This document shows, in pieces, positions 7,245-64,000 of a stretch of 64,000 nucleotides of DNA. Within the stretch, counting starts at the first letter, position 1. The number at the start of each line of letters is the position of its first letter. The stretch comes from Pontibacter litorisediminis (GTDB lineage: Bacteria; Bacteroidota; Bacteroidia; Cytophagales; Hymenobacteraceae), in contig NZ_JARDUA010000004.1 of NCBI RefSeq assembly GCF_029360645.1, positions 248,001 to 312,000 on the forward strand. Direction: 5' to 3'. The notes beneath the pieces are model-generated. The model saw only the letters and a list, made by a program, of their open reading frames with translations, ran no database searches and had not been told where the DNA came from. The position numbers and the translations under genes are program-made.

Positions 7245-7322
7245 GTTTTTATGCGGCCATTTTCGCTTCTGCGCCTCTCCAGCTACTGCCGCTCTTTCTA
7301 AGTATAAGTATTCGATGTAACT

Positions 7323-8858
7323 CTATACTTGCTCCGGCCGCACGGCCACAGCCACGTCCGTGGCAACGGGAGGTAAGTGCAGTAGCAAGTATGCACCGGA
7401 AGTGTGGCGGACAACCTCGGAGGTAACTATCTTGCCCTCCAGGGTATCCCAGTAAGTTACCCTATATGCACCCTGGTTCATGCCCGGCACCTGTACCTCT
7501 GCCGCAAGCGGCTCAGCTCCCCGGTCTATGGTCGCCAGCACATCTTCTCCTTGCACGTAGTTATCTGCGCGAAGCAGCCATAGCAGAGCCTGTCTTTCAT
7601 CGGCACAGGCAAACAGCACAAAGGAAGGGCTGCTGACTTTGGCTTCGTAGTTCAGGTTCTTTCTCCGGAAGTTTTTCCAATCGAGCAGCTTTACGAACGC
7701 AGCCATACTTTTCTGGGCGCGGCGCATGCCGTGGGTGAGGCAGTGCGGGTGGCGGTTGGGCCAGCGCATGCCGCCGCCCGCAGCACCCGAGGCCAGGTGT
7801 GCCCACTGTATGTGCCGGAAATATTCATCATCGAAATACTCTGGAAAAATGATGTGCCTGTCCTTGAAGGCATGAATAGGGCCGTGCTCGCTATCGAAGA
7901 AAGGACGGTTACCCTGCAGGTGTTCCAGTGCCTCCCGCACCAGGCGCCCCGCTACAATGGCGGACCACAAAGTATCCTTAGGGTTGTTGATCGTGGCGGC
8001 GTCGTAAAAGTGGGTGCTGGCAAAATCGAGCATCGGGTGCCGGAAAATAACGTCGGCCACTGCCGGGTGCTCATCCAGCACAGGGCCGTAAAGCGAAACC
8101 GTCTGCGGATGGCAGCGCCCGTACAGCCGCTGCTCTTCCTGCCGCAGGTGCTGGCTCAGCTCCTGTACAAAGTCAGCAAATACCTCTGTTCTATCGCCGG
8201 CGTGGGCGGGGTGTATCTCGTTCCAGAGGTCCCAGGCAAAGAGCACACCGCTGCCGCCCCACCTCTCAGCTACGAAGCTTAGCCGGTTCTTGACGGCCCG
8301 TAGCGTGTCGGGGCAGAGGAGCCATTCAGAGCGGTCCTTGCAGGGGCCCCCGTTCAGGTGGCTGTAGGGGTGGTGTTTCCATTTGATCCACATCCAGAAA
8401 GTATCCACCGGGGTCAGTAAAATACGGATGTTATACTTGGCGCAGAGGCGGAACAGGTCGTCCCAAAGCTGGACCATACTTGGGTTAAAGGTGCCGGCCG
8501 GCTTTTCGAAGTAGCGGTGTTGCCCCTGCGCGTACTCCAGCATCAGACGCAGGCAGGTCACCCCATGTGCTGCCAGCCATGCCAGGTGCCCTTCTACCTG
8601 CTGCAGGTTCTTTCGCCGGAAGAGGCCTGCAAAGTCAGGCCAGGTGATGGCGTCGTTCTGGCCGATAGGCGTCCAGTCCTCACCGGTCTCCGTCATAAAA
8701 TAGGGCGCATCCGGGGCCACCTGTACCCAGGGAAGATCCTGCTCTAGCTTAAAAGCGGGCAGTTCCTTTCTTTTTGCTGTAGCGGCCTTGCCGGATTTTG
8801 ACAGGCTGCTTTCGTCAATGTTGGCCCCAGTGTGCTGCTGTTGCTCAGTGAACTCCAT
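7323..8858 (-). CDS. Glycoside hydrolase, GH5-like (clan GH-A) family
   Basis: A 511-residue protein with a TIM-barrel glycosidase pattern. Visible landmarks are HGVTCLRLML (strand 2), LTPVDTFW (strand 3), FAWDLWNEIHP with the general acid/base Glu214 after Asn213 (strand 4), STHFYD with His283, and FFDSEHGP with the nucleophile Glu324 (strand 7). After the barrel, a C-terminal strand-rich region of about 100 residues looks like the small beta domain common in this clan. No signal peptide is evident; the first 35 residues are polar. The start overlaps the end of the UDP-galactopyranose mutase gene by 14 bp, so the two are translationally linked. A role in trimming or remodelling the polysaccharide made by this operon is inferred. 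The substrate cannot be told from sequence alone. Confidence 0.85.
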   Translation of the reverse strand: MEFTEQQQHTGANIDESSLSKSGKAATAKRKELPAFKLEQDLPWVQVAPDAPYFMTETGEDWTPIGQNDAITWPDFAGLFRRKNLQQVEGHLAWLAAHGVTCLRLMLEYAQGQHRYFEKPAGTFNPSMVQLWDDLFRLCAKYNIRILLTPVDTFWMWIKWKHHPYSHLNGGPCKDRSEWLLCPDTLRAVKNRLSFVAERWGGSGVLFAWDLWNEIHPAHAGDRTEVFADFVQELSQHLRQEEQRLYGRCHPQTVSLYGPVLDEHPAVADVIFRHPMLDFASTHFYDAATINNPKDTLWSAIVAGRLVREALEHLQGNRPFFDSEHGPIHAFKDRHIIFPEYFDDEYFRHIQWAHLASGAAGGGMRWPNRHPHCLTHGMRRAQKSMAAFVKLLDWKNFRRKNLNYEAKVSSPSFVLFACADERQALLWLLRADNYVQGEDVLATIDRGAEPLAAEVQVPGMNQGAYRVTYWDTLEGKIVTSEVVRHTSGAYLLLHLPPVATDVAVAVRPEQV

Positions 8859-10035
8859 TTTTTGGAATGTTTCTTATACTTCCGTTCAATGCTTTTCCCG
8901 CTCCATTCAGTTGCTGAGGCGCGTTTACAACGGCCTGAGCCAGTTTTTCTGCCGATAGCTTCTTAAAGAGCGTGAGTGCCTGCGCCACGACCTGGTCCAT
9001 GTTATAATATTTGTAAGTGGCCAGCCGGCCCACGAAGTGCACACCAGGAGTGGCATCCGCCAGTTTCTTATACCTGTTGTAGGTCTCGGCGTTCTCAGGG
9101 CGCGGCACGGGGTAGTATGGGTCGCCTTCGGCCTGCGGGTACTCATACACAATGCTGGTCTTGGGGTGCTGCTGCCCGGTCAGGTACTTAAACTCCGTGA
9201 TGCGGGTATAGGCGTGCTCGTTTGGGTAGTTGACGACGGCGGCAGGCAGGTGCACCGGCTTGTCCAGCGTTTCATGCCTGAACTCCAGCGAGCGGTACGG
9301 CAGCCTGCCGTAGCGGTAGCCAAAGTACTCGTCCACCGGCCCGGTATAGATCATCTCCCGGAACGGGATCATGTCCGCGATATCCTGATAATCCGTGTTA
9401 AGCATGATCTTGATGTTGGGGTGCGCCAGGAGCTTTTCAAACATGGCGGTATACCCGTACAGCGGCATGGCCTGGTAGGTGTCGGTAAAGTAGCGGTCGT
9501 CGCGGTTGGTGCGCACCGGTACCCGGGCGGTCACCGACTTATCCAGCTCCGAAGGGTCCATGCCCCACTGCTTGCGCGTGTAGTTGCGGAAGAACTTCTC
9601 GTACAGCTCCCGCCCCACCCTGCTCACCACCACGTCCTCCGAGGTGCGTACCGGCGCTATGTCCTCTGCCACGGACTTAAAGAAATTGTCTGCATCAAAG
9701 GCCGTCAGGCTGAGGCCGTATAGTTTGTTGATCGTATCCAGGTTGATCGGGATGGGCACCAGCTGCCCGTCCACGCTGGCTAGCACCCGGTGCTCGTACG
9801 GGCGCCAGGCCGTGAACTGCGACAGATACTCGAATACCTCTTTGGAATTGGTGTGGAAGATGTGCGGGCCATACTTGTGCACCAGTATCCCTTCCTCGTT
9901 GTAGTGGTCGTAAGCGTTGCCGGCAATGTGGTTGCGCTTATCAAGGATCAGCACCTTTTTATGCAGCTGCGAGGCCAGTCGCTCAGCCAGTACGCTCCCG
10001 GCAAAGCCTGTGCCCACGATCAGGTAATCAAACAT
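8845..10035 (-). CDS. glf: UDP-galactopyranose mutase
   Basis: A 396-residue flavoprotein that interconverts UDP-galactopyranose and UDP-galactofuranose in the cytoplasm, supplying galactofuranose for surface glycans. The N-terminus has the FAD-binding Rossmann motif GTGFAG (residues 8-13), followed by the family signature KRNHIAGNAYD and GPHIFHTN. Further family landmarks are PIPINLDTINKLYG and YTRKQWGMDP, then R-x-N-R-DDRYF, which contain substrate-binding arginines. Length is normal for bacterial Glf (about 370-400). A purine-rich GGGAGG lies just before the start. It sits 15 bp after the glycosyltransferase gene and overlaps the GH5-like gene, forming a three-gene minus-strand operon. Confidence 0.96.
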   Translation of the reverse strand: MFDYLIVGTGFAGSVLAERLASQLHKKVLILDKRNHIAGNAYDHYNEEGILVHKYGPHIFHTNSKEVFEYLSQFTAWRPYEHRVLASVDGQLVPIPINLDTINKLYGLSLTAFDADNFFKSVAEDIAPVRTSEDVVVSRVGRELYEKFFRNYTRKQWGMDPSELDKSVTARVPVRTNRDDRYFTDTYQAMPLYGYTAMFEKLLAHPNIKIMLNTDYQDIADMIPFREMIYTGPVDEYFGYRYGRLPYRSLEFRHETLDKPVHLPAAVVNYPNEHAYTRITEFKYLTGQQHPKTSIVYEYPQAEGDPYYPVPRPENAETYNRYKKLADATPGVHFVGRLATYKYYNMDQVVAQALTLFKKLSAEKLAQAVVNAPQQLNGAGKALNGSIRNIPKNGVH

Positions 10036-10050
10036 ACTTCCTCCCTTCCT

Positions 10051-11283
10051 TTAGATACGGTCCTTATTCTCCATTGCCTGTGCCATCAGTTCCACCATGC
10101 CACGCCAAGTCTGGTCCCAGGACATGTCGCGCATAAAGCAGCTCACCTTTTGCTGCCACGCATCGTTGTGCTGCTGTGTTAGCGCTGCCTCCACGGCCTG
10201 CACGAATTCTGCGGCCGAGCCAGCAATGTGCACCAGGCCCTCCTCACCGTAAGGGCGCACCACATCCCGGATGGGGGTAGACACCACGGGCTTGCCTGCC
10301 GCCAGGTACTCAGGCGTCTTGGTGGGGCTGATGAAAGCAGTGGACTCATTGAGGGCAAAGGGTAGCAGGGCCACCTGCCAACCGCTGATGTAAGCCGGAA
10401 GCTCCTGGTACGACTTGCCTCCCAGGTAGTGGATGTTGGGGCGCTGCGGCAGTGTGGCAGGGTCTATCTTCACCACCGGTCCAACCATCACAAGCTGCCA
10501 GTCCTGGCGGGCATCGGCCAGGGTGGCCAGCAGCTCAAGGTCCATGCGCTCATCTATCACCCCGAAAAAACCCAGCCGTGGCTCCGGTATAGGTTCCTGG
10601 TCGGCGGGTGGGGGTAGTGGCTTTTTGGCCTGTGCAAAATGGCCCTTGTCGATGCTGCTGGGAAAGGCCTTTACGGCAGGGTGCTGCTTGCGCTTGGCCT
10701 CGTACAGGCGCTGGCCTCCTGTAAATACAAGGTCGGCCCGTTTAAAAAGCTCTAGTTCCAGCTCCTTCAGGCGGGGCGGGGCAAATTTAAAAGCCGATAG
10801 CTCGTCCATGCAATCGTACACGGTGAGGGCGGGCCGCAGGTGGTTGGTAAAGGCGAGGGCCATGGGGGTATAGTACCATAGAACAGGATGCTCCAGCCGG
10901 TGTTCCGCTAGCAGTTGGTCCAGGAGGTGGCGCTGTGCTGCCTCAATTTGCGCTTCCTGCAGGCCATGTGGCAGGTGCGGCACCGCCAGCAGCATGTTTT
11001 CTCCTCTGGAGGAAGTATGTAGGTAGGGTTTCTGAGTATCTGTAAACACCGGTTCCTCCACAAAAAACAGGCGTCCGTAACGGGCAAAGCGGGAGAGCAG
11101 GTGCTGTGGCCGCTGGTACACAAAATCCCAGCGCAGGTGCGAGAGGCACACGATACCTGGGAGCTGTTGCAGAAACCTGTCCGTTCTATTTTGCTTCAGG
11201 CTGGCCTGGCTTTCGTGAGTAGCTGGCGGGAGGGTAGCGGCTGTCTTGCCTCCTACGTGTGGATCAGGCGTTTCTTTAAACAT
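10051..11283 (-). CDS. Glycosyltransferase (GT-B fold, GT4-like)
   Basis: A 410-residue protein. The first 35 residues are polar and probably disordered. The N-terminal Rossmann half contains GIVCLSHLRWDFVYQRPQHL, a motif seen in bacterial glycosyltransferases that begin by naming a substrate-binding loop. The C-terminal half has RLGFFGVIDERMD and the donor-binding region ISPTKTPEYLAAGKPVVSTP, typical of GT-B enzymes using nucleotide sugars. No membrane segment. It is the first gene of the operon with glf and the GH5-like gene and may transfer galactofuranose or another sugar during surface polysaccharide assembly. Acceptor and donor are unknown. Confidence 0.88.
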   Translation of the reverse strand: MFKETPDPHVGGKTAATLPPATHESQASLKQNRTDRFLQQLPGIVCLSHLRWDFVYQRPQHLLSRFARYGRLFFVEEPVFTDTQKPYLHTSSRGENMLLAVPHLPHGLQEAQIEAAQRHLLDQLLAEHRLEHPVLWYYTPMALAFTNHLRPALTVYDCMDELSAFKFAPPRLKELELELFKRADLVFTGGQRLYEAKRKQHPAVKAFPSSIDKGHFAQAKKPLPPPADQEPIPEPRLGFFGVIDERMDLELLATLADARQDWQLVMVGPVVKIDPATLPQRPNIHYLGGKSYQELPAYISGWQVALLPFALNESTAFISPTKTPEYLAAGKPVVSTPIRDVVRPYGEEGLVHIAGSAAEFVQAVEAALTQQHNDAWQQKVSCFMRDMSWDQTWRGMVELMAQAMENKDRI

Positions 11284-11554
11284 GAGTTTGTTTCCTTTAG
11301 AGTATATGGGTGCTTTCCAGGTGCAGCTACAGGAGCAGGTGCTACTACTGCCCGGTTGTTTTAGTACGCTTTTTATAGAGAAAGGTCAAGGTGTAAAGTA
11401 AAAAAATACAATTTATGCCAGGTGTTGCTTTGCAGCCTGCATCCCTTTAGGCAGGCTTAGGGAAAGCGGGGACGATAACCTGTGGCAAAAGGCGGGATAA
11501 TTGGCTAGCTTTGGCTAAAGATTTTATACTTAGAGACAGCGGTAGAGCGTGCAG

Positions 11555-12271
11555 ATGTCCGAAAAAGGAGAACAGCGGGAGAGGGAAAGCAAGGGAATAG
11601 GTGTGCAAAATGAACGCTCGTTGCACGCGGCCCTGAAACTATGGTATGCGCAGCCAGACGATAGGTTTGAAGTGCCCTTAAACGGCTTTTATATTGACCT
11701 GGTGCGGGGAGAGCAGTTGGTAGAGATCCAGACACGCAATTTCGCCGCCATCCGGCAGAAGCTGCAGGCGTTGGTGCAGGAGCACCGGGTACACCTCCTG
11801 CACCCGGTAACTTTCGAGAAGTGGGTGTTGCAGGTGGATGCAGCGGGCACCGGCGTCAAGTCACGGCGCAAGTCTCCGTACCGGGGCAAGCTGACAGACA
11901 TCTTTGAGGAGTTGGTTCGCATACCGGAGCTAATAAAGCACGAGAACTTCTCGATAGAGTTCCCCCTGATCCGGGAGGAGGAGGTACGTTGCCGTGACGG
12001 CAAGGGCAGCAAGTACAGGAAGCGGGAAAGTATAAAAGACCGAAAGCTGCTGGAGGTGGTAAGCAGCCATCGCTTCACAAAAGCTGAGGACTTTCTGCGG
12101 TTCATCCCCCAGGACTTGCCCCGCCCTTTTTCAAACAAAGCCCTTTCCGCTGCGCTTACCCTTCCCCTCCACCGGTGCCGCCAGATCACCTACTGCCTGC
12201 GTAAAATGGAGGTGATTGAGGTTGTAGGGAAGCAGAAAAATGAGCTTCTGTTTAATATTCCAGGCAGTTAA
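11555..12271 (+). CDS. Hypothetical protein (238 aa), possible nuclease-like N-terminal fold
   Basis: The ATG at 11555 is preferred to the GTG at 11549, which adds only two residues. The gene is divergent from the glycosyltransferase operon. Residues about 35-70 read FEVPLNGFYIDLVRGEQLVEIQTRNF: an acidic residue followed about 13 residues later by an E-x-Q pair, resembling the core of PD-(D/E)xK nuclease folds but with Gln for Lys. The C-terminal part (KALSAALTLPLHRCRQITYCLRKMEVIEVVG) looks like a winged helix. A DNA-related function is suggested, but I do not recognise a characterised family. Confidence 0.75.
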   Translation: MSEKGEQRERESKGIGVQNERSLHAALKLWYAQPDDRFEVPLNGFYIDLVRGEQLVEIQTRNFAAIRQKLQALVQEHRVHLLHPVTFEKWVLQVDAAGTGVKSRRKSPYRGKLTDIFEELVRIPELIKHENFSIEFPLIREEEVRCRDGKGSKYRKRESIKDRKLLEVVSSHRFTKAEDFLRFIPQDLPRPFSNKALSAALTLPLHRCRQITYCLRKMEVIEVVGKQKNELLFNIPGS

Positions 12272-12716
12272 GCTGCCCTACTGTCTCCCTTCCCTATTTT
12301 AAACTAAAAGGCACAGCTCTTGCGCTGTTGCCCTCCCCTGCAGCGCTAACCCCATGCTTTAAAAGAACTGGTTCAAGGGTGAGCCAGGCTCTTTGCTTTT
12401 GATCTCTTCCGGGCGCTCATATCTTGACTGCCTGTGCCCTGCGCAATTTTCAGAATACCAATCCGTTATACTTTTAAGCATTATAAAAAACAAAGAAGGC
12501 GTGTAACCTTTTACAGGTTTTGCCACTAGAGGTATAGGGCGGCATGGTGCCTGTTTTCTGCCATTGCTGCCTCCAAGCACCTGTTTCTCTCTCTTTCCCG
12601 GTGGTTTAACTGTAGCTATTGGGCCGGTACATAGCCAAGTGCTTACGTATCTAATATATATGATTTTCGTAATACAAAAACTCTGAGCCTATAGATCACC
12701 CTTAACTCCTACCTAG
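12272..12716. other. Gene-free stretch of 445 bp before the first T9SS cargo gene
   Basis: Contains one AAGTATA-type word (TATACTT at 12467-12473) and an AT-rich zone at about 12650-12680 that probably includes the promoter of the gene at 12717. No RNA gene, strong hairpin or convincing coding frame is seen; a frame of 73 codons on the minus strand has no coding character. Confidence 0.5.
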
Positions 12717-15700
12717 ATGCACCTTCTGTTACAAAGGCATTTGTTTCTTAGCTTGCTCTCTTTGCTGCTGCTTTGCCATGTGGGCTGGGCGCAGTGCCCT
12801 ACCGCTATAACTGTAAATGGGCGCACCGTACTTTGCGAGGGAGAGACAACAGAGCTATCGGCGCCTGAAGGTGATGGCCTTAGCTACCAATGGATTAAAG
12901 ACGGTGCAGATTTAACCGGGCAAGTGGGGCGAACGCTGCAGGTAAGCGAATCCGGGTCTTATCAGGTGCGGGTAACAGGCAGCACCTGCGACACGAACAC
13001 CTCCAGCGAGCGCGTCATAACGGTTAATCCGCTTCCCATCACTCCTGCCTATACGGTTTCCCCTGCCCCGGCACCCAACAACCCTGTGTGCTCCGGCGAT
13101 GAGCTTACCTTCTCCTTGAATTTCCCGGCAGAGCCAGGCGTAACCTATACCTGGGATTTCGGGGATGGCAGCACCGCAAGAGGGGCAACAGTAACGCACA
13201 CGTACACGTCTACCGGTGTGGGGGCAGAGTCCTTTCCTGTAACAGTTACTGCCACCAGTGCGGCTGGCTGCGAAGTAAACTCTGCGCCTAGAGACGTGGT
13301 GGTGAACCGCCTGCCTGAAATCAGCTTTTCAGAAGAGTCTAATTTCCAGGTGTGCTTGCCGGATTCTATAGAAGATAGTGAGATTGAAGTCTTCGCTATC
13401 TTGAACAACGAAGTGGCAGAGCCTTCCCTTTCCGACATCCGCACCTACTTTGTGGACTGGGGAAACGGTGATCCGGAGCAGCAGTACAGCCGTGGCGATT
13501 TTCCTGTTTCCAACCCCACCGCATACGACTCTATCAAAACCTACCCCATTACCATCCGTGCCATCGCCGGGAACGGCTGCGAGGCAACTTTCACGCAGGA
13601 TTTTAATGTGAGCAAAGAGCCTAAGGCAAACTTTTCTATTGCGGAGAAGAAGCGGGTGGAGGAAGAGCAGCAGCCGCCCTGCGTGCCTATTATCGTCACC
13701 TTGGCCGATAGCGCCACGGGTGGCGGCCTGTCTTACAAGTGGTCGGTGCAGCCGGAGCAGGGTTGGACCTTCGAGACAGGTGACTCCGCCTCTGCCGAGC
13801 CAAGCATCCGGTTCACGCAATCCGGGGTGTACACCATTGAGCAGATCGTGACCAACGGCTGTGAGTCCGATACCACCTCCCAAGGTATAGTAGTGGGCTG
13901 GCCGCAGGTGCAGTTGCCACCAAGCGTTACCGTCTGCGGTCCCACTGAGATAGACTACAGCAGCAGCGGCCCGGGAGGAGGGTTCGGCGGCGGTTTGTTC
14001 GTGGACAAGAACCTGGGGGAGAACATCACCGTCAGGCTCACGATTACGGGCCCTGTCAGCACGACGCGCACCTTTAACTCTGATGTGTTCCAGTACCGGC
14101 ACCAGTTTACGCAGCCCGGCAGGTATACCGTATCCTTGGAGGCCATAAATGAATGTGGCAGCTCCAATGCCATTTACCAGGGGCAACCGGCGCCTGTGCA
14201 GGAGGTGGTGATACTGCAGCAGCCGGCCGCGCCTATTGTCCAGACACCGGTCACGGCCTGCGAAGGCGATATGGTGGAGCTCACTCCTTCAGGGCCGGGG
14301 CCCATATTTGCCTGGTTCGATGTTAACGATCCGGCTGCAGCCCCCGTGTTTACAGGGCCAACCTTTACGACTCCGTCCTTAACAAACGACATCACCTTTT
14401 ATGTAGCGGCCATAGACACGGCGAACGGTGTGGTCTGCATCAGCGACTTTACGCCCATACCCATCACGGTAGTGCCCGCTATTGCGGATAACACCATCGA
14501 GGTGCAGGGAGAGCAGGTGCGGAGCCTGTGTAAGGGTGCCGTGCCACCTACCATAACCGGCTCCACGCCTTCTGGCGGGGCACCGGGCGCCGCGCCGCGC
14601 TACCGGTGGGAGGTCAGCACCACCAGCCCCACTGCCGGCTTTGCGGCGGCTCCCGGTACGAACAATACCAAAGACTACACGCCGACACAGGCTGTCTCGG
14701 GTGATACCTGGTTCAGGCGTGTGGTATTTTCCGGTAATTGTGGCGAGAACATCAGTAACGTCGTGTCGATCATCGCCGTGGATCCGGTGCCAGCCAGTGC
14801 CAACACCATCACCGCTGAGCCCACCCAGGTCTGCGAAGGCGACACTCCCGGCCAACTAATTGGTTCGGAGCCAACGGGCGGTGGCGGCAGGCCATATACG
14901 TTCCTGTGGGAGGTGAGCACAACCGGGCCCGACGAAGGCTTTGCGGCAGCCCCAGGTGCAAATGACGACGTGAACTACACCATACCGGCCGGTGCGCTGC
15001 AGCAGGGCGAGACGTGGTTCCGCAGGGCGGTTACCTCTGGCGGCTGTACCTCCTACTCGGATGCTATCAGGTTTGTGCTTTACCCGAGGCTAGAAAACAA
15101 CGAGATCAGTGCGGAGCAGACGCAGGTATGCATTGGCACTGCCTCGCCTATACTTAACGGCACCGAGCCAACGGGCGGCAGCGGCAGCTACACGTACCTG
15201 TGGCAAAGCAGCACCACCGGGCCAGATACCGGTTTCAGAAATGCTGCCGGCACAAACACCGGTCAGAATTACTCTCCGGGTATACTTACCGCTACCACCT
15301 GGTTCCGCCGCGTGGTAAGCTCAGGCTCCTGCGGGGCCGATACTTCTGACGCGCTGGAGATAAGGGTGGCTCCTGCCCTGCGCAATAACACCATCACGGC
15401 CGCGCAGCCGGATGTGTGCCAGTCGCAGGAGCCGCCGCAGATAACCGGCAGCTCGCCAACCGACGGCGCCGGGGGCTACACGTACCTCTGGGAGAGCAGC
15501 ACAGTTGGCCCGGATGCAGGCTTCGTGGAGGCCGCAGGCACGAACACAGGCCAGAACTACCAACCCGCCGCACTCAGCCGCGATACCTGGTTCCGAAGGG
15601 TCGTGTTCTCCGGCGGCTGCTCCGATACCTCTAACGTGGCCAGTATAAGCGTGCTTCCGTTGCCGGAGGCCCCTACGCTGGCAGTAAACAATGCCACCGC

Positions 15701-16406: not shown

Positions 16407-16409
16407 CAC

Positions 16410-49130: not shown

Positions 49131-49135
49131 TCTAT

Positions 49136-56009: not shown

Positions 56010-56317
56010 GCCCTGCGGGCAATTAAGAATGACGAATTAAGAATTATGAATTGACAAATGGAGTGCGGACAACATGCTCTTTCGGATTTGCAATCCGAAA
56101 ATATGGTACTGCAAGGATTTATAATCCGCACTAGCAAAGGCTAAAGCTACTACCTAATAAGCGGATTGCAAATCCGCTTATTAGGTAGTTCCGGATTGCA
56201 AATCCAGAACAGCAAAATCTGGAACAGCAGTAGAGAAAAACTGGCGCGGGTATCCAATCCGTGACGTAGGGTGGGTGTGAGTCTCCAGACTCGCTTGAAT
56301 AACTAAAGCAGAAACAG
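56010..56317. repeat. Repeat-rich gap with GGATT..AATCC palindromes
   Basis: Palindromes TTCGGATTTGCAATCCGAA (56081-56099), GCGGATTGCAAATCCGC (56161-56177) and a variant at 56191-56206, plus GAGTCTCCAGACTC (56279-56292). The beginning (56020-56060) is a tract of AATTAAGAAT-type words. No gene. Confidence 0.75.
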
Positions 56318-56857
56318 ATGGAAGAGACAGCAACTATAAAGCTGACGGAGGCAAGTACACAGCTCCTGAAGAAGATCGTGGGAGAAAGGATCTGCTACTT
56401 CTTTACCGAAAGTATAAAGGTACACGCTACCGATGGCAAGGTGCTGTACTGGGCGCCGGAGTTTGCACTGGGCCTCACCAAGAACAAGCGCGACCAAAGC
56501 TTTATCAACATCAGCGCCGATTACAGGCTCTCTGACAAGTCCTCTACCACCTACTATACTTTTGAGGTAGAGGAAAGCAATACTCCGCTTCGCTGCGAAA
56601 AGCTGCTGCAATCCGGGCGGCACTCGGAACTAAAGCTGCTGTCGTCGCCGGTGCTGATGATAGAGGTGTACCAGGACTGGAACCAGGAGTTCGACGAAAC
56701 CATACACTATGACGCTGCCATTGTGTTCTACACCGACACCCGAAAGTACATGCTAAAAGTGCGCGAGGAGCTAATCGGTGGTGTGGATATCATACTGGAC
56801 GAAGCGGCTATCGAAGATGAGCTAAGGGATCTGAAGTTGCGGCAGAGTTTGGTGTAG
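56318..56857 (+). CDS. Hypothetical protein (179 aa) in the Bat-like operon
   Basis: An ATG-started frame with the same GC-rich codon style as its neighbours. I do not recognise a family. The sequence looks like a mixed alpha/beta soluble protein with several charged and aromatic segments (YYTFEVEESNTPLRCEKLL, EVYQDWNQEFDETIHYDAAIVFYTD). No signal peptide or membrane segment. It follows a palindrome-rich gap, so it may be a later insertion between MoxR and DUF58. Confidence 0.75.
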   Translation: MEETATIKLTEASTQLLKKIVGERICYFFTESIKVHATDGKVLYWAPEFALGLTKNKRDQSFINISADYRLSDKSSTTYYTFEVEESNTPLRCEKLLQSGRHSELKLLSSPVLMIEVYQDWNQEFDETIHYDAAIVFYTDTRKYMLKVREELIGGVDIILDEAAIEDELRDLKLRQSLV

Positions 56858-56886
56858 GTGGTTATTGGCCCTTTGAGTCTAGAGAA

Positions 56887-57450
56887 ATGGTAATTAATAT
56901 AAATCAGAAGAAGATAGCCTTTGAAGACAAGTACAGAATTTACGTCAATGGCAAACTATCACATTCTGCTTCAACTGAATTGATTAGCTTTCTACCTAGA
57001 CTATACTTATTCAGTAATCAGAGTTCACGTGCTAGGCTCATCATGAAAAAGAGGTGGTCGTGGTTCAATACAAAGTATAGAGTTACTCTTTGGGACGGGA
57101 ATGATATAAATTTTACAACAGTCTCACTCTGGAGATCTCATTACCAATGTCAGGAGGGAGTTAACCTTTATGATATCTATGGACACAAAGGCCGAAAACA
57201 TTCTGTTTACAAAAATGATGTTCAGGTTGCTTGGTGGGATAAAGAAATGGTATCATGGTTTGAAGGCGATAACTACAAGCTAGTTGCTGATGATGATAGT
57301 GATTATGAATTGATTGTAGCTTTCTGCCTGATGCTTGACAATCAAAATAGCAGTAACGACAATGGTAACACAGTAATCATTGACTTTGGAAATATTGGCC
57401 CACAAGCAAAAGAGTTTAATTATGAGTGGAAGGCAAAGCAACTATCATAA
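56887..57450 (+). CDS. AT-rich hypothetical protein (187 aa), possible tubby/LURP-one-like fold
   Basis: An ATG-started frame whose base composition is clearly more AT-rich than the genes on either side, pointing to a foreign origin. Strand-rich pattern with recurring aromatic residues (FEDKYRIYVNGKLSH, KKRWSWFNTKYRVTLWDG, VAWWDKEMVSWFEGDNYKL) resembles LURP-one/tubby C-terminal-like barrels; this is a guess from pattern only. No signal peptide or membrane span. It interrupts the MoxR-DUF58 pairing. Confidence 0.7.
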   Translation: MVININQKKIAFEDKYRIYVNGKLSHSASTELISFLPRLYLFSNQSSRARLIMKKRWSWFNTKYRVTLWDGNDINFTTVSLWRSHYQCQEGVNLYDIYGHKGRKHSVYKNDVQVAWWDKEMVSWFEGDNYKLVADDDSDYELIVAFCLMLDNQNSSNDNGNTVIIDFGNIGPQAKEFNYEWKAKQLS

Positions 57451-57493
57451 TTAGTCTTAACAATCTATAAACCCTGAAAATCCTGATTTACCC

Positions 57494-58387
57494 TTGACCA
57501 CCCACAAATTCATCGACCCGAAGGTACTGGCTACCATAAAAGACCTGCCGCTGTTGGCGAAAACGGTGGTGGAAGGTTTTCTGGCGGGACAAAACCAGAG
57601 TTTGCGGCGTGGGGCAGGGCTGGAGTTTAGCCAGTACCGTAGCTACCAGCCCGGCGACGATCTGCGGCAGCTCGACTGGAAGATGTTTGCCCGCTCCGAC
57701 CGCTACTACATCCGCGAGGCCGAGGTAGACACCAACATCACGGTGCGGTTTATACTGGATGGCAGCGCCTCAATGGCACACGAAGATGTAAACGGCATCA
57801 GCAAAATGGATTATGCACGGTTTCTGGTGGCCTCGCTGGCTTACCTGGCCACGACGCAGGGCGACGCGGTGGGGCTGTACGTGCTGCACGAGAACCAGCT
57901 CATCAACCTGACGCCGCGCTCCGACAACATGCACCTGCAGCGCTTCTGGCACCAGCTGGCCGAGGTAACCCCGCAGGGTAAGTTCCCGGGCATGGAGGTA
58001 GCCGCCAACCTGTTTGCCGACAGGCGGCAGAAGGAGCTAACTGTTTTTCTGTCGGATTTATATGAGCACGAGCACGAGATAAAGAACCTGCTGTACAAGC
58101 TGGGTGCGCAGGGGCACGAACTGCTGCTGGCCCACCTCATGAGCCGCAACGAACTTGACTTCAGCTACACCGGCACCCTCACCTTCGAGGACCTGGAAAC
58201 GGGGCAAACGCTACAGGTGAGCAGTGCTTCGCAAAAGCAAGCCTATTTAGCCAAACAGCAGGAGTGGCTGCAGGATATAGAAAAAGACATGCGCAACCGC
58301 CAGATCGCCTACGACAGGTTTGTAACGGACGAGCCGCTGGACAAGGCGCTAAGGGCTTTCCTGCAAAAGCGGCTGCTTTACGGGTAA
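57494..58387 (+). CDS. DUF58 family protein (vWA-like fold)
   Basis: A 297-residue protein with a TTG start; the conserved opening HKFIDPKVLATIKDLPLLAKTVVEGFLAG begins directly after it, and the next ATG lies at residue 65, so no other start is possible. Core features: GLEFSQYRSYQPGDDLRQLDWKMFARSDRYYIREAE (family signature), and FILDGSASM, the metal-ion-dependent adhesion-like D-x-S-x-S of vWA folds. Works with MoxR. No membrane segment. Confidence 0.92.
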   Translation: MTTHKFIDPKVLATIKDLPLLAKTVVEGFLAGQNQSLRRGAGLEFSQYRSYQPGDDLRQLDWKMFARSDRYYIREAEVDTNITVRFILDGSASMAHEDVNGISKMDYARFLVASLAYLATTQGDAVGLYVLHENQLINLTPRSDNMHLQRFWHQLAEVTPQGKFPGMEVAANLFADRRQKELTVFLSDLYEHEHEIKNLLYKLGAQGHELLLAHLMSRNELDFSYTGTLTFEDLETGQTLQVSSASQKQAYLAKQQEWLQDIEKDMRNRQIAYDRFVTDEPLDKALRAFLQKRLLYG

Positions 58388-58676
58388 TTTAGAATGAGCG
58401 ATTGAGTGACTGAGTGGATGAAATAATATGAAGTACCCAATCATGGCGCGAGCGTCCTCGCTCGTGCCGGCTATAGTTGGGCCTCCGGCCCAGTTGAATT
58501 ACAAACTCAACACCATTGTAAGGCACGAGTTGCAAACTCGCGCCAGCAAAAGGAGATGACAGCAACTATAAAATTTATGCTCTATCAAAAGCAATACTAA
58601 AATTCCCCTCCTTGGAGGGGTTAGGGGTGGGTTAATCGTCCCACAAACTAACAACTAATAACCAACAACTATAAAC
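58388..58676. repeat. Gap with palindromes and a CCCCTCC-type repeat
   Basis: Palindromes GGCGCGAG...CTCGTGCC (58445-58468), TGGGCCTCCGGCCCA (58478-58492) and GGCACGAG...CTCGCGCC (58522-58544), then a CCCCTCCTTGGAGGGG repeat at about 58601-58633. AACAACTA words lead up to the next start. No gene. Confidence 0.85.
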
Positions 58677-60170
58677 TTGACTTTCCTCGCACCATACTGG
58701 CTTTTTGCAGCGTCGGCTATACTTATCCCGATCGCCATTCACCTGTGGAACAAGCGGCAGGGGAAGACAGTGAAGGTGGGTAGTCTGCGCTGGCTGGAGG
58801 CCTCGGCGAGTAACCGCTGGAGCAGTATAAAGCTGAGCAACTTCTGGCTGCTGGTGCTGCGCTGCCTTATACTTATACTTTTAGCGGTGGCGCTGGCGCA
58901 GCCGGTGTGGGAGCGTCAGGCACAAAAGCAGCAGGGGAAAAGAGCAGTGGTCATCGGCGAAGAGCTGCTTTATACTTCCGCCCTTGCCCCTATCAAGCCA
59001 ACCATCGACTCGCTGTTGCAGCGTGGCTATACCTTGCACAGGTATACACCAAACTTAGAGCAGATACCGCAGGAGGCTTGGCAGCAGATTAGCAATCGGA
59101 CACAAGATAGCCTGGTAAGCAGCAAGTATAACTACTGGAGCCTGCTACCGGTCCTGGCAGCAAAGTATAAATCGCCCCAGGATAGCGTGTTGCTCCTTAC
59201 CTCGGATCAGCAGCAGTATTTTGCAGGTACTCGCCCCGAAGCGGTTCCGCAGCACATCCGCTGGATTCCGGTTGCCACAGCCGCAAGTATCACCTGGCTG
59301 CAGGCTGCCACTCAAACCACACCCGATAGCCTGCTGCTTCTACTTGGCCACAGCTCCCGCGAGGGCACGAAGTACAGCAGGTACAGAACAGCCGCATCCG
59401 CACAAAGTATAAACCTGCCCGGCAACCAAAAGCTGCAGCTGCAACGCCAGCAGGACTCGTTACAGGCCACCAGCTCCGGCCATAGCAGCAAGGTAAAAAT
59501 ACAAGCCAAGCCGCTGCAGGTAGCCATACTTGCCGGTGAGGCGCAACAGGCGGAGGTACCCTACCTAAGCGCAGCGTTGCGGACTATCAGCAGCTACACT
59601 GGCTTGCCAATTCAGGTGAAAGCCGATTCCGCACAGGCCGATTGGATTTTCTGGCTGCGTAACGAGCCGCTGCCCCAAAGTATAAACCAACAGGCAAAGC
59701 AGGGGCTGCAGGTGTGGGTGCAGCAGGGGCAGGAGCCACAGCCGGTAAAAACCAGCCTGGCCGGAGCAGGCGGCACAGCTATCCAAGTGCACCAAATCAA
59801 CCAACGCAAGCCACTGCAGCAAAACCAAGTATGGGCGGCAGCAAACGGAGAGCCGCTGCTTTATGCTCAGGAAATTGGCCAGGGCCGAATCTATACTTTC
59901 CGGAGTGGGTTTGCCCCAGCTTGGAGCGAACTGGGGCAGAGCGCGCAACTGCCCGAGCTACTGCTGCCACTGCTTTTGCCGCAACCGCAGGCAACCTACG
60001 ACTACCGCGCGCTAGACGAGCAGCTGCTGCTGCCGGCAACCCGTGTGCAGGCAGCAGCAGCAAGTGCCGACGAAACCACCCGCGAGCCACTGTTAAAGTG
60101 GTTTGTTTTAGCGGCCTTTGTGTTATTTTTAATCGAGAGAATCATTGCCAGCAGGCGCAGCAGTCTATAA
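58677..60170 (+). CDS. BatA-like (aerotolerance regulator N-terminal) membrane protein
   Basis: A 497-residue protein with a TTG start and no alternative ATG before the domain. Two N-terminal membrane segments, LFAASAILIPIAIHLW (with the family NKRQGKTVKVGSLRWLEAS between) and WLLVLRCLILILLAVALAQPVW, form the BatA domain. A long periplasmic or cytoplasmic part follows, and a last membrane segment (WFVLAAFVLFLIERIIA) with RRSS ends the chain. The usual vWA domain is not evident. It lies directly before the DUF4175 gene (next codon), so the two are translationally linked. Confidence 0.88.
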   Translation: MTFLAPYWLFAASAILIPIAIHLWNKRQGKTVKVGSLRWLEASASNRWSSIKLSNFWLLVLRCLILILLAVALAQPVWERQAQKQQGKRAVVIGEELLYTSALAPIKPTIDSLLQRGYTLHRYTPNLEQIPQEAWQQISNRTQDSLVSSKYNYWSLLPVLAAKYKSPQDSVLLLTSDQQQYFAGTRPEAVPQHIRWIPVATAASITWLQAATQTTPDSLLLLLGHSSREGTKYSRYRTAASAQSINLPGNQKLQLQRQQDSLQATSSGHSSKVKIQAKPLQVAILAGEAQQAEVPYLSAALRTISSYTGLPIQVKADSAQADWIFWLRNEPLPQSINQQAKQGLQVWVQQGQEPQPVKTSLAGAGGTAIQVHQINQRKPLQQNQVWAAANGEPLLYAQEIGQGRIYTFRSGFAPAWSELGQSAQLPELLLPLLLPQPQATYDYRALDEQLLLPATRVQAAAASADETTREPLLKWFVLAAFVLFLIERIIASRRSSL

Positions 60171-62339
60171 ATGGCCATACCAGAGAGCATCCATACTTTA
60201 CAGCGGATCCGCCGGCAGTACGTGCAGGCGAAGCTGTGGCTGTATGCCCTGCAGGCGCTAGCGGCAATACTGGTGGCGGTGGCCATACTTTGGCGCTGGA
60301 GGTTCGAGGCCCCTTTGCTGGCTGTAACGGCCTTTGGCATCCTGCTGTCCCCCGTTTTATACTTTATACTTCGCTGGAAATCGGTTTCGATGATTGGCTT
60401 GCAGCACGTAGCGCGCCACCTGAACCGGCAGTACCCGCAACTCGAGGACAGCACCGAACTGCTCCTGCAGGAGCCGCAAAACCTGCTGCAGCGGCTGCAG
60501 CAACAGAAAGTGGCGGCTATCCTTCAGGAGCTTCATCCGGAGAAGGTTTACACGCTGAAAGGCGCGCCCACGTATGTGGCGCTGGGGCTGGCATTGGTGC
60601 TTTCCGTAGGCATTTTATACTTGCCAGCGGCCCCGCTGGCGGCTCTCTCTCCAGATAAAGAAGTGGAGATTGCGTTCCCGGAGGCACCCGCCGCAGTTGC
60701 CGATACCGCTGCGCAGATCCAGAGTATAGACATCGCCATCACACCGCCCCGCTACACGGGCAAGCAAACCTACAAAGCCGAAAGTCCGAACCTGCGCGTG
60801 GAGGAGGGGGCTACCGTTACCTGGCGCATCCGCACCAGCAAACCTGCACAACTGCAGCTGGAGCTGAACGAGCAGCCGGAGCGGTTTAAGCAAAACCAGG
60901 GAGTTTATACTTTCTCGCGCAGCTTCACAGAGCCCGGCCTCTACACCATCAACCTGAACGGACAAAAGTCCGCTTTTTATACCCTGGAGATCATCCCCGA
61001 CGAGGCCCCAGCCATCCAAATCAGCAAGCCGAAAGAGTACACCGAGATCCGGTTGGGCGAGCAGCAGCGGGTAACGCTACAGGCGCAGCTCACCGACGAC
61101 TACGGCATCCGCGAAGCGAACATGGTCGCGACGGTAGCCAAGGGTAGCGGCGAGGCCGTGAAGTTCCGGGAGGAAAAGATCAAACTGAACCTAAGCGGCA
61201 ACAGCCGCAACTACCGTGTCAGCCAAACACTCGACCTGCAACAGCTGGGCATGAGCTTCGGCGATGAGCTATACTTTTACCTGCAGGCCTGGGACAACCA
61301 CCGCGGCTACACCCGCTCCGAAACCTACTTTGTGCAGATCGAGGACACCACCATCGTGGAGGCCGATTTCGACATGACGGCCGGCGTGAACCCGGTACCG
61401 GAGTACTTCCGTAGTCAGCGCCAGATTATCATCGATACGGAGAAGCTGATCAAGGAGCAGAAAAGCATCAGTAAAACAGCGTTTGAGGAGCGTTCTAATA
61501 ACATCGGGGTAGACCAAAAGCTGCTGCGCCTGCGCTATGGCAAGTTCCTGGGCGAGGAGTTTGAGAGCGGCATCGGCCCGGGAGGCGGCATCCCCGAGGG
61601 AGCGGAGGAGCATGAGGAAGAAACGCATTTTGAAGGCGACGGACACGACCACCCGGAGTTCGAGAACCAGAACAGCCCCGAGGCTCTGCTGGACCCTTAC
61701 CTGCACAAGCACGACATGGAAGAGGCCGCCACGATTTTTGAGCCTGCCGTGAAAGCCAAGCTGAAGGGCGCGCTGGCGCAGATGTGGGAGGCGGAGTTGC
61801 GGCTGCGCACGCACAAGCCCAAAGAAGCCCTGCCCTTCGAGTACAAAGCCCTGCGAATGCTGAAGGATGTGCAGCAGTCGCAGCGGGCGTATGTGGCTAA
61901 AACCGGCTTTGAGGCACCACCGCTAAAAGAGCCGGAGCTGCGCCTGACCGGAGAACTAAATAAGATCACGCCGCAGAACGGGCAGCAAAGTATAGACCAG
62001 CAACAGGAGCTACCGCATACACGTGCCACGCTAAGCTGGCTGGCCAAGTATAAACAGACGGGCAAGTATAACCTCGCCGATGCACAGCTGCTGGAAAAGG
62101 CAGGACAAGAGCTGGCGGAGCACGCCCTCAGCAACTCTGGCAAAAATTTAAAAGCGCTGCAGGATGTGCGGCAGCTGATCTCAGAAATAAAAGCAGGCAA
62201 AAAGCTTTGTGTCTCGTGTTTGGAGGCGGCAGAACAAGCCTGGGCGGAGCTACTGCCCCCAGCCAGGCAAACACCACAGCCAGGGCAGGCGGTGCGAAGC
62301 AAGCTGGCGGAGGAGTATAGGAAGCGGTTAGAGAATTAG
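60171..62339 (+). CDS. DUF4175 family membrane protein
   Basis: A 722-residue protein. Three N-terminal membrane segments (LYALQALAAILVAVAILWRW, LLAVTAFGILLSPVLYFIL, YVALGLALVLSVGILYLPAAPLAAL) are separated by a helical loop, followed by a large extracytoplasmic region with strand-rich modules (SIDIAITPPRYTGKQTY, YEIRLGEQQRVTLQAQLTDDYGI) and a helical C-terminal part with a charged acidic stretch around EGAEEHEEETHFEGDG. This is the DUF4175 architecture. It begins immediately after the stop codon of the BatA-like gene. Function unknown; a structural envelope partner of MoxR is likely. Confidence 0.9.
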   Translation: MAIPESIHTLQRIRRQYVQAKLWLYALQALAAILVAVAILWRWRFEAPLLAVTAFGILLSPVLYFILRWKSVSMIGLQHVARHLNRQYPQLEDSTELLLQEPQNLLQRLQQQKVAAILQELHPEKVYTLKGAPTYVALGLALVLSVGILYLPAAPLAALSPDKEVEIAFPEAPAAVADTAAQIQSIDIAITPPRYTGKQTYKAESPNLRVEEGATVTWRIRTSKPAQLQLELNEQPERFKQNQGVYTFSRSFTEPGLYTINLNGQKSAFYTLEIIPDEAPAIQISKPKEYTEIRLGEQQRVTLQAQLTDDYGIREANMVATVAKGSGEAVKFREEKIKLNLSGNSRNYRVSQTLDLQQLGMSFGDELYFYLQAWDNHRGYTRSETYFVQIEDTTIVEADFDMTAGVNPVPEYFRSQRQIIIDTEKLIKEQKSISKTAFEERSNNIGVDQKLLRLRYGKFLGEEFESGIGPGGGIPEGAEEHEEETHFEGDGHDHPEFENQNSPEALLDPYLHKHDMEEAATIFEPAVKAKLKGALAQMWEAELRLRTHKPKEALPFEYKALRMLKDVQQSQRAYVAKTGFEAPPLKEPELRLTGELNKITPQNGQQSIDQQQELPHTRATLSWLAKYKQTGKYNLADAQLLEKAGQELAEHALSNSGKNLKALQDVRQLISEIKAGKKLCVSCLEAAEQAWAELLPPARQTPQPGQAVRSKLAEEYRKRLEN

Positions 62340-62834
62340 AGAGTTTAGGAGTTAGAGAGTTGGGAAGTTAGAAGGTTAGAAAGTTAGGCAGTGCCGGGCC
62401 CAACCACCCCTGCCCCTCCTTGGCTTTTTCGAGGGCCCCTACCCCCAGGAGGGGAGCTATACTTGTTCCATAGCAGAGACAGTGGCTATCGGAATGATCC
62501 CAGCCTTTGGGTTGAGCGCCTTGTAAGATCCGGTGCCACGCTAGTGGCAGCGCCCTGGCGCAGGAGGGAACACAGCGCGATGCCCTTATCGAGGGCCCCT
62601 ACCCCCAAGGCGAGCCCTCTCGGGCTGGAGAGCTCCACTGTTGGAGATGAAACTGTAGGTTTGTGGGAACTAGAGGATCAGCGGTGGCTAGTAAGGATAG
62701 CTTGTATCAAGCAAAGGGAAGCAGTGGCTTTGAAAGTATAAACTGAAGTATAAGAAGGCACAAGCCTGAAGACTTGCGCCATAAAATAATAAAAGGCACA
62801 GCCAAGAGAGAGGCAAAGAAACTATAACACAAGC
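62340..62834. repeat. Repeat-filled gap with dispersed repeat copy D
   Basis: Starts with a tract of GTTAGA words. The block TCGAGGGCCCCTACCCCCA appears at 62429-62447 and again at 62589-62607. Copy D of the long repeat family is at about 62482-62702, forward. A palindrome GGCACAAG...CTTGCGCC lies at 62757-62780. Open frames through here that yield SLWVERLV-like text are not genes. Confidence 0.85.
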
Positions 62835-63335
62835 ATGATTCAGTTCCGCACCCATATCGGCTTACTCCAACACCTCCCCGGTATGCACTACCTGGAAGTG
62901 CCGCAGGAGGTAGTACAGGATTTGGGCACCCTCAACATCCGCCTGATCTGTAAGGTAAACAACACGCTAAACTTTCAGTGCGGGTTGATGGCGCTGGGCG
63001 AGGGCAGAGCCTATATCAGCATCAGTAAAAAGCGCATGCAGCAACTGGGCGTAGCGCTGCACGATGAGGTAACAGTAACACTGGAGAAAGACGACAGCCA
63101 ATACGGCACCGAAATGCCTGCCGAAATGGAGGAGCTGCTGCAGCAGGACGAGGAGGGAAACAGGCGCTTTCTGCTGCTTAAGCCCGGCATGCAGCGCTAC
63201 ATGCTCAACCACGTGTCGGCGGTAAAAAGCCCGCAGCTGCGCGTGGACCGTGCCATCACTTTAATCGAGAACCTGAAAAAGCTGCCGGAGGGCAAGGAGA
63301 ATTTCCGGGCCATGCTGGGCCTGCCCCCACGCTAA
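62835..63335 (+). CDS. DUF1905/YdeI-like protein
   Basis: A 166-residue protein. The N-terminal 90 residues match DUF1905 (YLEVPQEVVQDLG, MALGEGRAYISISKKRMQQLGV, GDEVTVTL-like segment) and the C-terminal part (QRYMLNHVSAVKSPQLRVDRAITLIENLKKL) matches the YdeI/OmpD-associated family, thought to relate to bacteriocin protection in some bacteria. No signal peptide. It lies between repeats and the next operon gene with only nine bases before the latter, so they may be co-transcribed. Confidence 0.85.
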   Translation: MIQFRTHIGLLQHLPGMHYLEVPQEVVQDLGTLNIRLICKVNNTLNFQCGLMALGEGRAYISISKKRMQQLGVALHDEVTVTLEKDDSQYGTEMPAEMEELLQQDEEGNRRFLLLKPGMQRYMLNHVSAVKSPQLRVDRAITLIENLKKLPEGKENFRAMLGLPPR

Positions 63336-63344
63336 TAAAATAAG

Positions 63345-64000
63345 ATGATGCAACTAACCTGGCTTATAGCGATACCTGTGGTCCTGCTGCTCCTGTGGCT
63401 GGCCTGGCGCCGAACTAACCGGCAACGACTGCCGTGGCGGCTGTTGGCTAGCGCTGTGGCCGGAGTGAGCCTGGTGCTGCTGGTGTTTCCGCCCGTTACG
63501 CAGCAGGCCATCAGCCCCGGCACGGCTATACTTTTAACCAAGGGGTTTGAGACGGATTCCCTGGATGCCATGCTGCAAAGGCTGGAAGCAAAACCTACAG
63601 TTTATACTTATAAAACCACTTCGGATAAGGGCGAGGCCATACACTCCCTGCTAGAGTTGCAGCAGCGGCAACCGGGGCTGCAGACAGTGCATTTGCTGGG
63701 CTATGGGTTAGAGGAGGAGGAACTGGAGCAATTAAAGCACCTGCAACTGCTGCCTCACCTCACGCGCGCTCCGGCCGGGGTGCAGGCGGTAAGCTGGCCA
63801 GCAAGTATAAAATTGGGAGAAGCCGTGGAGGTGGCCGGCAAGTATGAATCCGCAGCAGCAAGTATAAAGCTGTACCTGCACGCCGCTGGCAAAGCACAGG
63901 ATTCTGTAGAACTGGCCGCGGATAGCACCCACACCTTCCGCCTCCGCTACACCCCGAAAGTGCCAGGCCGCTATACTTATACTTTACTGGCGAATACCGA
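63345..64000 (+). CDS. Membrane protein of the Bat-like operon, runs past window end
   Basis: Starts at one of two ATGs in a row, nine bases after the previous stop, and stays open to the window end (about 218 codons). Two N-terminal membrane segments (WLIAIPVVLLLLWLAWR and LLASAVAGVSLVLLVFPP) are followed by an extracytoplasmic part with a helical first portion and a strand-rich region (AASIKLYLHAAGKAQDSVELA) resembling an Ig-like or carboxypeptidase-like fold. Probably a second BatA-like or related envelope protein. The C-terminus is outside. Confidence 0.85.
   Translation, partial: MMQLTWLIAIPVVLLLLWLAWRRTNRQRLPWRLLASAVAGVSLVLLVFPPVTQQAISPGTAILLTKGFETDSLDAMLQRLEAKPTVYTYKTTSDKGEAIHSLLELQQRQPGLQTVHLLGYGLEEEELEQLKHLQLLPHLTRAPAGVQAVSWPASIKLGEAVEVAGKYESAAASIKLYLHAAGKAQDSVELAADSTHTFRLRYTPKVPGRYTYTLLANT

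Follow-up and report, generated by a model that had tools for sequence, protein, structure and literature searches.

Words like the DNA uptake sequence (DUS) of the Neisseriaceae are, to our knowledge, known only from two proteobacterial families that take up DNA through type IV pili. The DUS is read by a type IV (minor) pilin, and uptake by way of the uptake signal sequence (USS) of the Pasteurellaceae is pilus-dependent. Here we describe a word, AAGTATA (TATACTT on the opposite strand), that recurs throughout a 64,000-nucleotide stretch of the genome of Pontibacter litorisediminis (contig NZ_JARDUA010000004.1, positions 248,001 to 312,000; this whole stretch is referred to as the window). 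We consider it established by sequence comparison that AAGTATA is a genome-wide word with dialects, kept in the genus Pontibacter by selection or biased recombination. Like the USS, it is dense in genes and gaps, and it differs from the USS in being another word in another phylum.

The likeness to the DUS extends to several features. Parts of PMC3630211 describe thousands of copies of a short word, dialects that lie a few bases apart and run parallel to the phylogeny, one genome in which two dialects coexist, and members of the family that lack an obvious DUS; parts of PMC3630211 and PMC7371117 describe an atypical distribution in mobile elements. Each of these has a counterpart in Pontibacter. 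In contrast to the DUS, the Pontibacter word belongs to Bacteroidota, is shorter, has a TATA core, and is found in genomes with no clear ATPase of the T2SSE family. The cyanobacterial word HIP1 is likewise very frequent genome-wide and rare in exceptional relatives, as a section of PMC4390886 relates, but it is a G+C-rich palindrome with methyltransferase links, whereas the Pontibacter word has dialects within one genus. Transformation of Riemerella requires, according to parts of PMC8459023, ComEC, DprA, ComF, RecA, a periplasmic HHH protein, a DUF1343 protein, a predicted outer-membrane protein and an adjoining DUF5689 protein. Domain matches to ComEC, DprA and HHH_3 are present in all 50 Pontibacter genomes that we compared; unlike in Riemerella, the DUF5689 family, which R. 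anatipestifer requires for transformation, is matched in 22 of the 50. PMC7965970 reports that R. columbina prefers its own DNA; a point of difference is that the 10-mers put forward as candidates in R. anatipestifer and R. columbina, in the table row examined, are low-complexity and A-rich.

By exact matching, the window holds 102 copies of the word (43 of AAGTATA and 59 of TATACTT), against Markov expectations of 5.0, 4.2 and 6.5 at orders 0, 1 and 2. The expectations at orders 3, 4 and 5 are higher (17.5, 46.0 and 86.2), because the sub-words that feed the model have already been made common by AAGTATA itself. The initial annotation, made from the letters of the window, had claimed a gross over-representation, with more than 90 copies from 7300 to 64000 on both strands, roughly 60:40 in favor of TATACTT, and just three in the first 7.2 kb. 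Our count agrees: 99 copies lie at 7300-64000 (58 of TATACTT, 41 of AAGTATA) and the other three at 1800, 1950 and 6157. Outside the seven bases, a lean in base usage is seen at the next two positions alone. The first base after the word is A or G in 59 and 26 of the 102 copies, and the second is A or C in 49 and 23. Conservation of the flank thus ends about two bases past AAGTATA, which argues for a word and against a repeat with flanks.

The excess holds genome-wide, a count that the initial annotation had proposed as a check. In the source genome (4.99 Mb in 17 contigs), AAGTATAA occurs 3552 times (1815 + 1737) and the reversed word 90 times (52 + 38); for AAGTATAAA the figures are 1080 + 987 versus 21 + 12. 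For breadth, AAGTATAAA and its reversed control were counted in 291 genomes of the order, six of them from Pontibacter. These six have 84 to 3679 copies versus 33 to 87 of the control; the excess is at least 19-fold in four of the six, and none of the counted genomes outside the genus reaches this. The two low genomes are G140 (84 versus 34) and G185 (317 versus 87). The largest excess noticed beyond Pontibacter was 209 versus 80 in a genome of the same family (G177); a few small-count genomes outside the genus have higher ratios (31 versus 8, 39 versus 13, 10 versus 2), and most stand near the control. Word ranking, which covered 44 of 80 TldD loci, returned no comparable TATA word in 17 non-Pontibacter loci (Hymenobacter, Dyadobacter, Spirosoma, Adhaeribacter, Marivirga and two Cytophagales), and no dialect word was found in 20 kb each from two other genera of the family (G177 and G196). 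Among the genomes searched, AAGTATA enrichment is confined to Pontibacter.

These counts bear on the plainest alternative, namely that the word arises from codon bias, from composition or from a transposable repeat scattered over the genome, all raised in the initial annotation as possible ways to explain it away. Some codon-type words (CAGCAG, ACCTGC, CAGGTA) are indeed abundant in Pontibacter genomes in which no word was detected (the word-less genomes, eight in number), and even these eight hold 1.3 to 3.7 times as many copies of AAGTATAA as of its reversed control. The reversed-word controls in the word-bearing genomes and the lack of a like excess in the sister-genus DNA examined nevertheless exclude composition for the bulk of the excess, and a flank conserved over about two bases at most speaks against a dispersed repeat; the genic copies moreover use all six reading frames. 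For the bulk of the excess this explanation is already refuted, and the probability left to it is negligible.

Within Pontibacter, the word comes in several spellings. We classed 50 genomes from whole-genome counts and from a de novo ranking of 7- and 8-mers, sampled from the TldD loci of named species, from 20 kb of 35 of the 50 genomes and from 11-20 kb around comEC in all 50. Twenty genomes carry AAGTATA (the AAG class) and one more carries it weakly (G305); 12 carry AGGTATAG (AGG), four AACTATAG (AAC), three both the AAG and AAC spellings (G202, G302, G330) and one ATATATAA (ATA; G140). One has a weak GGTATA excess (G326), and in eight none was detected (G185, G297, G303, G316, G320, G321, G322, G332). 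The whole-genome counts of AGGTATAG are 2823 to 5222 in 12 genomes and at most 833 in the others; those of AAGTATAA are at least 2125 in 23 genomes (the 20 AAG and the three two-spelling ones) and at most 1201 in the rest. AACTATAG numbers 6288 to 8208 in five genomes, 2002 and 2617 in two more and 907 in G334, and ATATATAA reaches 3231 versus 381 in G140 alone, with 496 versus 201 in G326. The density of the dialect 8-mer is approximately 0.45 to 1.8 copies per kb in 40 of the 50 genomes. By their TldD loci, P. mucosus, P. chinhatensis, P. cellulosilyticus, P. flavimaris and P. ruber are AAG species, as is P. harenae weakly; P. lucknowensis, P. roseus, P. indicus and P. ramchanderi are AGG species; P. 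fetidus has both AAC and AAG, and P. pamirensis has none.

A quick ComEC protein tree of the 50 genomes, rooted at its midpoint and with 15 of its 47 inner branches open, sets the AGG genomes on one side of a branch with SH-aLRT support of 99, and groups the AAC with the two-spelling genomes at a support of 100 (9 for AAC alone). AAG requires six changes on it, and the six genomes labeled as having no word require four, at least three of them by the starred branches. On this quick tree of one protein, the dialects, which differ by a few bases, track the phylogeny, and we infer that AAG is probably the ancestral spelling, with AGG, AAC and ATA derived and the word lost several times. The tree shows G320 under an old label, a dialect AGGTAGAG that was suspected and then dropped when 20 kb more sequence pointed to one local repeat array. 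The top 9-mers of this genome (at L209 and L251; for example AGTTAGAGA and CTCTACCTC, 9 to 11 copies each) gave the false dialect signal, and G320 is counted as word-less because they look like such an array. In the word-less G322, AACTATA is weakly in excess, with 23 copies in 40 kb. Besides its weak GGTATA excess and some ATATATAA, G326 has 59 copies of CCATACC versus 6.3 in 60 kb, and is possibly a dialect in transition. In contig 1 of G291, at about 1944098-1946633, AGGTATAG recurs every 64-69 bases, at least 39 times in a row, in an arrangement like that of a CRISPR array; a CRISPR-like repeat there would carry the word of another dialect.

The spellings also bear on the proposal that this is a methyltransferase-linked iterated word of the HIP1 kind. 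HIP1 too is dense genome-wide, and is tied to orphan methyltransferases in the account given in part of PMC4390886. The AAG and AGG words are not palindromes, however (neither AAGTATA(A) nor AGGTATAG is; the AAC dialect alone favors a palindrome, with 48 overlapping inverted pairs that form a 10-base palindrome in the AAC genomes), and the spelling varies within the genus. We judge this explanation to be quite unlikely.

Orthologous sites show that the word is maintained. We compared the stretch around the TldD gene (51122-52768) of the window, 41122..62768 on the plus strand, with the corresponding orthologous regions in 27 named Pontibacter records, whose TldD proteins are 90-95% identical to that of the window. 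Among AAG species, 59-60% of aligned sites have an intact word where nucleotide identity is 76-84%; for AGG species, it is intact at 47% and 67% in two matching identity bins. Column identity for AAG in the 76-84% bins is 0.86 to 0.94 inside the word versus 0.62 to 0.86 in the flanks, and all seven positions are conserved. The 80-84% bin by itself has 60% of its words intact, with column identities of 0.87-0.94 inside and 0.69-0.86 outside the word. Around comEC, AAG targets keep the word at 0.20-0.61 of sites, versus 0.16-0.29 for all 7-mers (19 genomes), and it exceeds its control in 18 of the 19, the exception being G291 (0.20 versus 0.24). AGG targets keep it at 0.55-0.76 versus 0.24-0.36, higher than the control in 12 of 12. 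The initial annotation had suggested looking for conservation of the word between orthologous genes beyond that of the flanking codons; in most genomes the word is indeed kept above other 7-mers. When the target is word-less, the AAG word is found at 0 to 2.6% of sites in seven of eight genomes and at 6% in G303, with 7-mer controls of 12.5-17.3%; the AGG words are found at 0 to 9.4% in three of four word-less targets and in G322 at 18.8% versus a control of 11.6%.

Sites are also re-spelled in place. Sites with AGGTATA in 12 AGG loci were paired with those of 13 AAG loci. Of the 2083 site pairs, 26.4% read AAGTATA on the AAG side and 7.4% still read AGGTATA; control 7-mers that carry a G in this position undergo this one substitution in 3.0% of cases and are identical in 18.9%. 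In the reverse direction, AAG sites are re-spelled in AGG loci in 13.7% and unchanged in 5.9% of 3997 pairs (control, 3.4% and 15.9%). Re-spelled sites outnumber unchanged ones in 132 of 156 genome pairs from AGG to AAG, and in 123 of 156 in reverse; genome-pair counts, here, for conservation and for the AAC comparison below, enter a given site many times over and lack independence. Since re-spelling exceeds identity, the sites of the AAG and AGG clades remain words while their spelling shifts.

The word is sharply bounded. AAGTATA has a density of 1626 per Mb in 1.14 Mb of AAG DNA versus 173 per Mb in 0.23 Mb of word-less Pontibacter DNA, and 20 of its 21 single-base neighbors stand at 0.6 to 1.7 times background; AAGTATG alone is enriched (642 versus 134). 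For AGGTATA (2133 versus a background of 195), the neighbors that exceed twice the background are those with G at place 1 (480 versus 87), C at place 1 (373 versus 165) and G at place 7 (350 versus 117). This near-miss spectrum indicates that a one-step bias of mutation or repair cannot account for the word. A site at which mismatch repair or mutation is biased, with selection playing no part, would fit a turnover by substitution and not by insertion, and indeed gaps take up 3-5% of sites in seven of eight identity bins (12% in the eighth). A single-step bias would, however, drain one near-miss class, and the spectrum has 20 classes near background and the other enriched; all seven positions of the word are conserved, and plasmids would be expected to convert too. 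We regard this explanation as very improbable.

The word is in fact rare in the mobile DNA tested, namely three plasmids and a putative mobile element in the window. Over their first 20 kb, the second contigs of G291, G292 and G308 match plasmids from P. actiniarum, P. akesuensis and P. kalidii at full identity. In eight 20-kb stretches of these three plasmids (160 kb), there are 41 words, versus 128 in six 20-kb stretches (120 kb) of chromosome from the same genomes, an approximately four-fold lower density (P = 4e-18); the reversed word has 22 copies in the plasmid stretches. Eleven further stretches were excluded from this test, since either the contig was not established as a plasmid or the genome lacks the dialect; they include contig 6 of G237 (9 words), contig 6 of G302 (53 words in 20 kb) and contig 2 of G322, whose chromosome is word-less (9 and 8 words). 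In the window, the putative mobile element (1..7299) has a predicted tyrosine integrase on the minus strand (5711-6970) and, at about 11-198, resembles plasmid recombinase genes. It holds the three early copies, that is, 3 of 102 in 7299 of 64000 bases (P = 0.002).

On the chromosome, the copies lie in genes and gaps, with no strand polarity in the 400-kb stretch analyzed, two aspects that the initial annotation had suggested examining. By a simple longest-open-reading-frame gene call, on which the coding, gap and phase counts rest, density is 0.96 per kb in coding sequence and 3.4 per kb in gaps for a 400-kb stretch of the source genome, and 1.36 and 2.8 per kb for the window. Sense and antisense copies number 190:152 and 35:41, respectively. 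Spacing is near-Poisson (squared coefficients of variation of 1.1 and 1.3). The two strands share the word 259:241 across the 400-kb stretch of this one genome, and orientation does not follow GC skew there (153:137 in 240 kb of positive skew, 106:104 in the other 160 kb). In genes, all six frames are used. The initial annotation had read the genic copies as Ser-Ile or Ile-Leu, names that interpret the phase counts; this is right for about one third to two fifths of them, with the rest in other frames. The two frames account for 25 of 76 copies in the window (13 Ser-Ile, 12 Ile-Leu), 139 of 402 in the source genome and 358 of 829 in other AAG genomes, where Ile-Leu is the commonest (245) and many loci are orthologous. 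Convergent and divergent gaps have 4.2 and 3.1, 4.8 and 3.0, 3.4 and 3.0 (AGG) and 13.2 and 4.5 (AAC) words per kb in four pools; in the AGG pool tandem gaps are the densest (4.2 per kb). A promoter or regulator site was rejected, divergent gaps being the lowest or equal lowest of the three gap classes in all four pools.

Two other roles are the main rivals to that of an uptake word, and this layout bears on both. A Chi-like signal would halt an exonuclease of the RecBCD/AddAB type on self DNA and start recombination, its specificity drifting between clades. The chromosomal abundance and the scarcity on the three plasmids suit such a mark of self, and the word is dense enough to protect short fragments. 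Chi is polar in E. coli and shared over whole families; the Pontibacter word has no orientation bias by GC skew in the 400-kb stretch and changes inside one genus. The lack of strand bias in that single stretch led us to reject Chi proper and KOPS, and we hold a Chi-like role to be unlikely. Alternatively, the word could be the binding site of a chromosome-organizing protein (nucleoid-associated or SMC-linked) of Pontibacter, to which we likewise give a low probability. Its near-Poisson spread through genes and gaps, its plasmid scarcity, the convergent gaps that are richer than the divergent and the near-palindromic AAC spelling are in keeping with this role, but nothing known to us would force nucleoid sites to be so exact and so dense in coding sequence, or to be absent from eight related species.

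The dialects, the in-place re-spelling, the conservation, the near-miss sharpness, the plasmid rarity and the lack of strand bias together point to a recognition word kept by selection or drive. The initial annotation had likened AAGTATA to DNA uptake sequences or another genome-wide recognition word, and recognition in this broad sense is well supported, also by the restriction of the excess to the genus. Our best inference as to its function is a self-DNA uptake word like the DUS dialects of the Neisseriaceae, a proposal that we rate about as likely to be right as wrong. A DNA-binding protein would read the word and so let the cell tell the DNA of its own kind from foreign DNA, most likely at the uptake or protection of incoming DNA during natural transformation through ComEC. 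Word-bearing DNA of kin would be taken up and recombined more often, and such an uptake drive would spread the word over the chromosome and leave newly acquired DNA without it. Were the specificity of the reader to shift, the words would follow, giving a new dialect. The reader would probably be not a type IV pilin but another protein of the Bacteroidota transformation machinery. In its full form, which we put forward tentatively and at slightly less than an even chance, the proposal is one of pilus-independent self-DNA recognition, in which an 8-base word selects kin DNA and in which specificity has changed several times within the genus, re-spelling thousands of sites and raising a species barrier to gene exchange. 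In Bacteroidota, where the outer-membrane step of transformation is poorly understood, a word that forms dialects would open a direct way to the machinery. The 50 genomes, with four clear spellings, three two-spelling members and eight without a detected word, form a natural series in which to search for the reader and to follow a genome-wide signal as its spelling changes. We found no earlier report of the AAGTATA word, and no paper on natural competence in Pontibacter or on an uptake signal sequence in Hymenobacter, in the full-text literature searched, which leaves most subscription journals outside its coverage.

Several observations weigh against an uptake word. The ComEC, DprA and HHH_3 matches extend to the eight word-less genomes, where the ComEC and DprA matches are free of stops and the short HHH matches listed are open; competence genes therefore do not predict the word. 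In the single contig of G309, comEC (at about 2771217) lies in two frames with stops, dprA (about 4158575) has two stops, and the short HHH gene (about 2078296) is split into frames of 87 and 75 amino acids, versus one of 304 to 346 in most kin. Five aligned comEC neighbors are uninterrupted, and a single small reading frame contains three stops; that all three genes are broken with neighbors open suggests the loss of one dispensable pathway, which counts in favor of the uptake reading. Yet G309 still has 2537 copies of AAGTATAA and keeps orthologous words like its kin (0.354 versus a control of 0.204), so that the conservation test gives no sign of word decay following competence loss. G325, with comEC and dprA interrupted, keeps its words best of the 12 AGG genomes (0.763); two other nearby genes of G325 also have stops, which makes an assembly error possible. 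Re-spelling between AAC and AAG is slight: around comEC, AAC sites are AACTATA in 14.5% and AAGTATA in 3.1% of cases in AAG genomes (n=750), and AAG sites are AACTATA in 5.4% in AAC genomes (n=428), with AAGTATA outside the 14 commonest states.

T2SSE/PilB ATPases gave partial weak matches only in the 50 genomes (the best 25.9 bits over 60 of 370 positions), a cut-off of 24.9 bits being passed in three, with 31 of 32-45 first-look candidates scored in most genomes. With no clear T2SSE ATPase, pilins, the known readers of the DUS, have no visible platform here, and a type IV pilus reader was set aside on this absence of a clear assembly ATPase, the pilins themselves not having been searched. 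A Riemerella-type DUF5689 protein was rejected because its distribution over the 50 genomes does not follow the word. ComEC divergence was not decisive as a clue to the reader and did not single out the dialect switches. None of ten proteins scanned beside comEC in the source genome (L166) is receptor-like, and no reader protein was identified among the candidates examined.

The chromosomal copies in the window are placed as follows, all by exact match. AAGTATA starts on the plus strand (7300..64000) at 7300, 12028, 17072, 17368, 17867, 20943, 22424, 24785, 25415, 25902, 26615, 27526, 28215, 28436, 29448, 30495, 31357, 36126, 37264, 38222, 38900, 42833, 46588, 49272, 53302, 53579, 55005, 55976, 56410, 57073, 59124, 59163, 59405, 59678, 61988, 62046, 62064, 62734, 62746, 63803 and 63860. 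TATACTT, the word on the minus strand (7324..63984), starts at 7324, 8432, 8875, 11525, 12467, 15149, 15281, 15762, 16424, 16430, 19833, 25008, 25961, 26002, 26618, 26779, 30299, 31039, 32036, 32185, 32278, 32289, 33287, 34441, 34504, 34852, 36550, 39347, 40889, 41205, 42836, 44531, 46167, 47261, 48526, 48634, 49456, 51068, 51116, 54239, 55811, 56555, 57002, 58718, 58868, 58874, 58971, 59892, 60358, 60365, 60616, 60906, 61270, 62458, 63527, 63603, 63972 and 63978. The four tandem pairs and two palindromes that the initial annotation had noticed are all present. The pairs lie on the minus strand with a spacing of 6 bases at 16424..16436 (starts 16424/16430), 58868..58880 (58868/58874) and 63972..63984 (63972/63978), and of 7 bases at 60358..60371 (60358/60365). 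The 10-base palindrome AAGTATACTT, which consists of two overlapping inverted words, is at 26615..26624 and 42833..42842. Elsewhere in the window, a type IX secretion cluster at 12717-25891 comprises a CHU_C protein, two PorP/SprF proteins and an OmpA-family protein, and 42767-44155 encodes a dGTP triphosphohydrolase-like protein with a weaker, sub-threshold similarity to anti-phage dGTPases.

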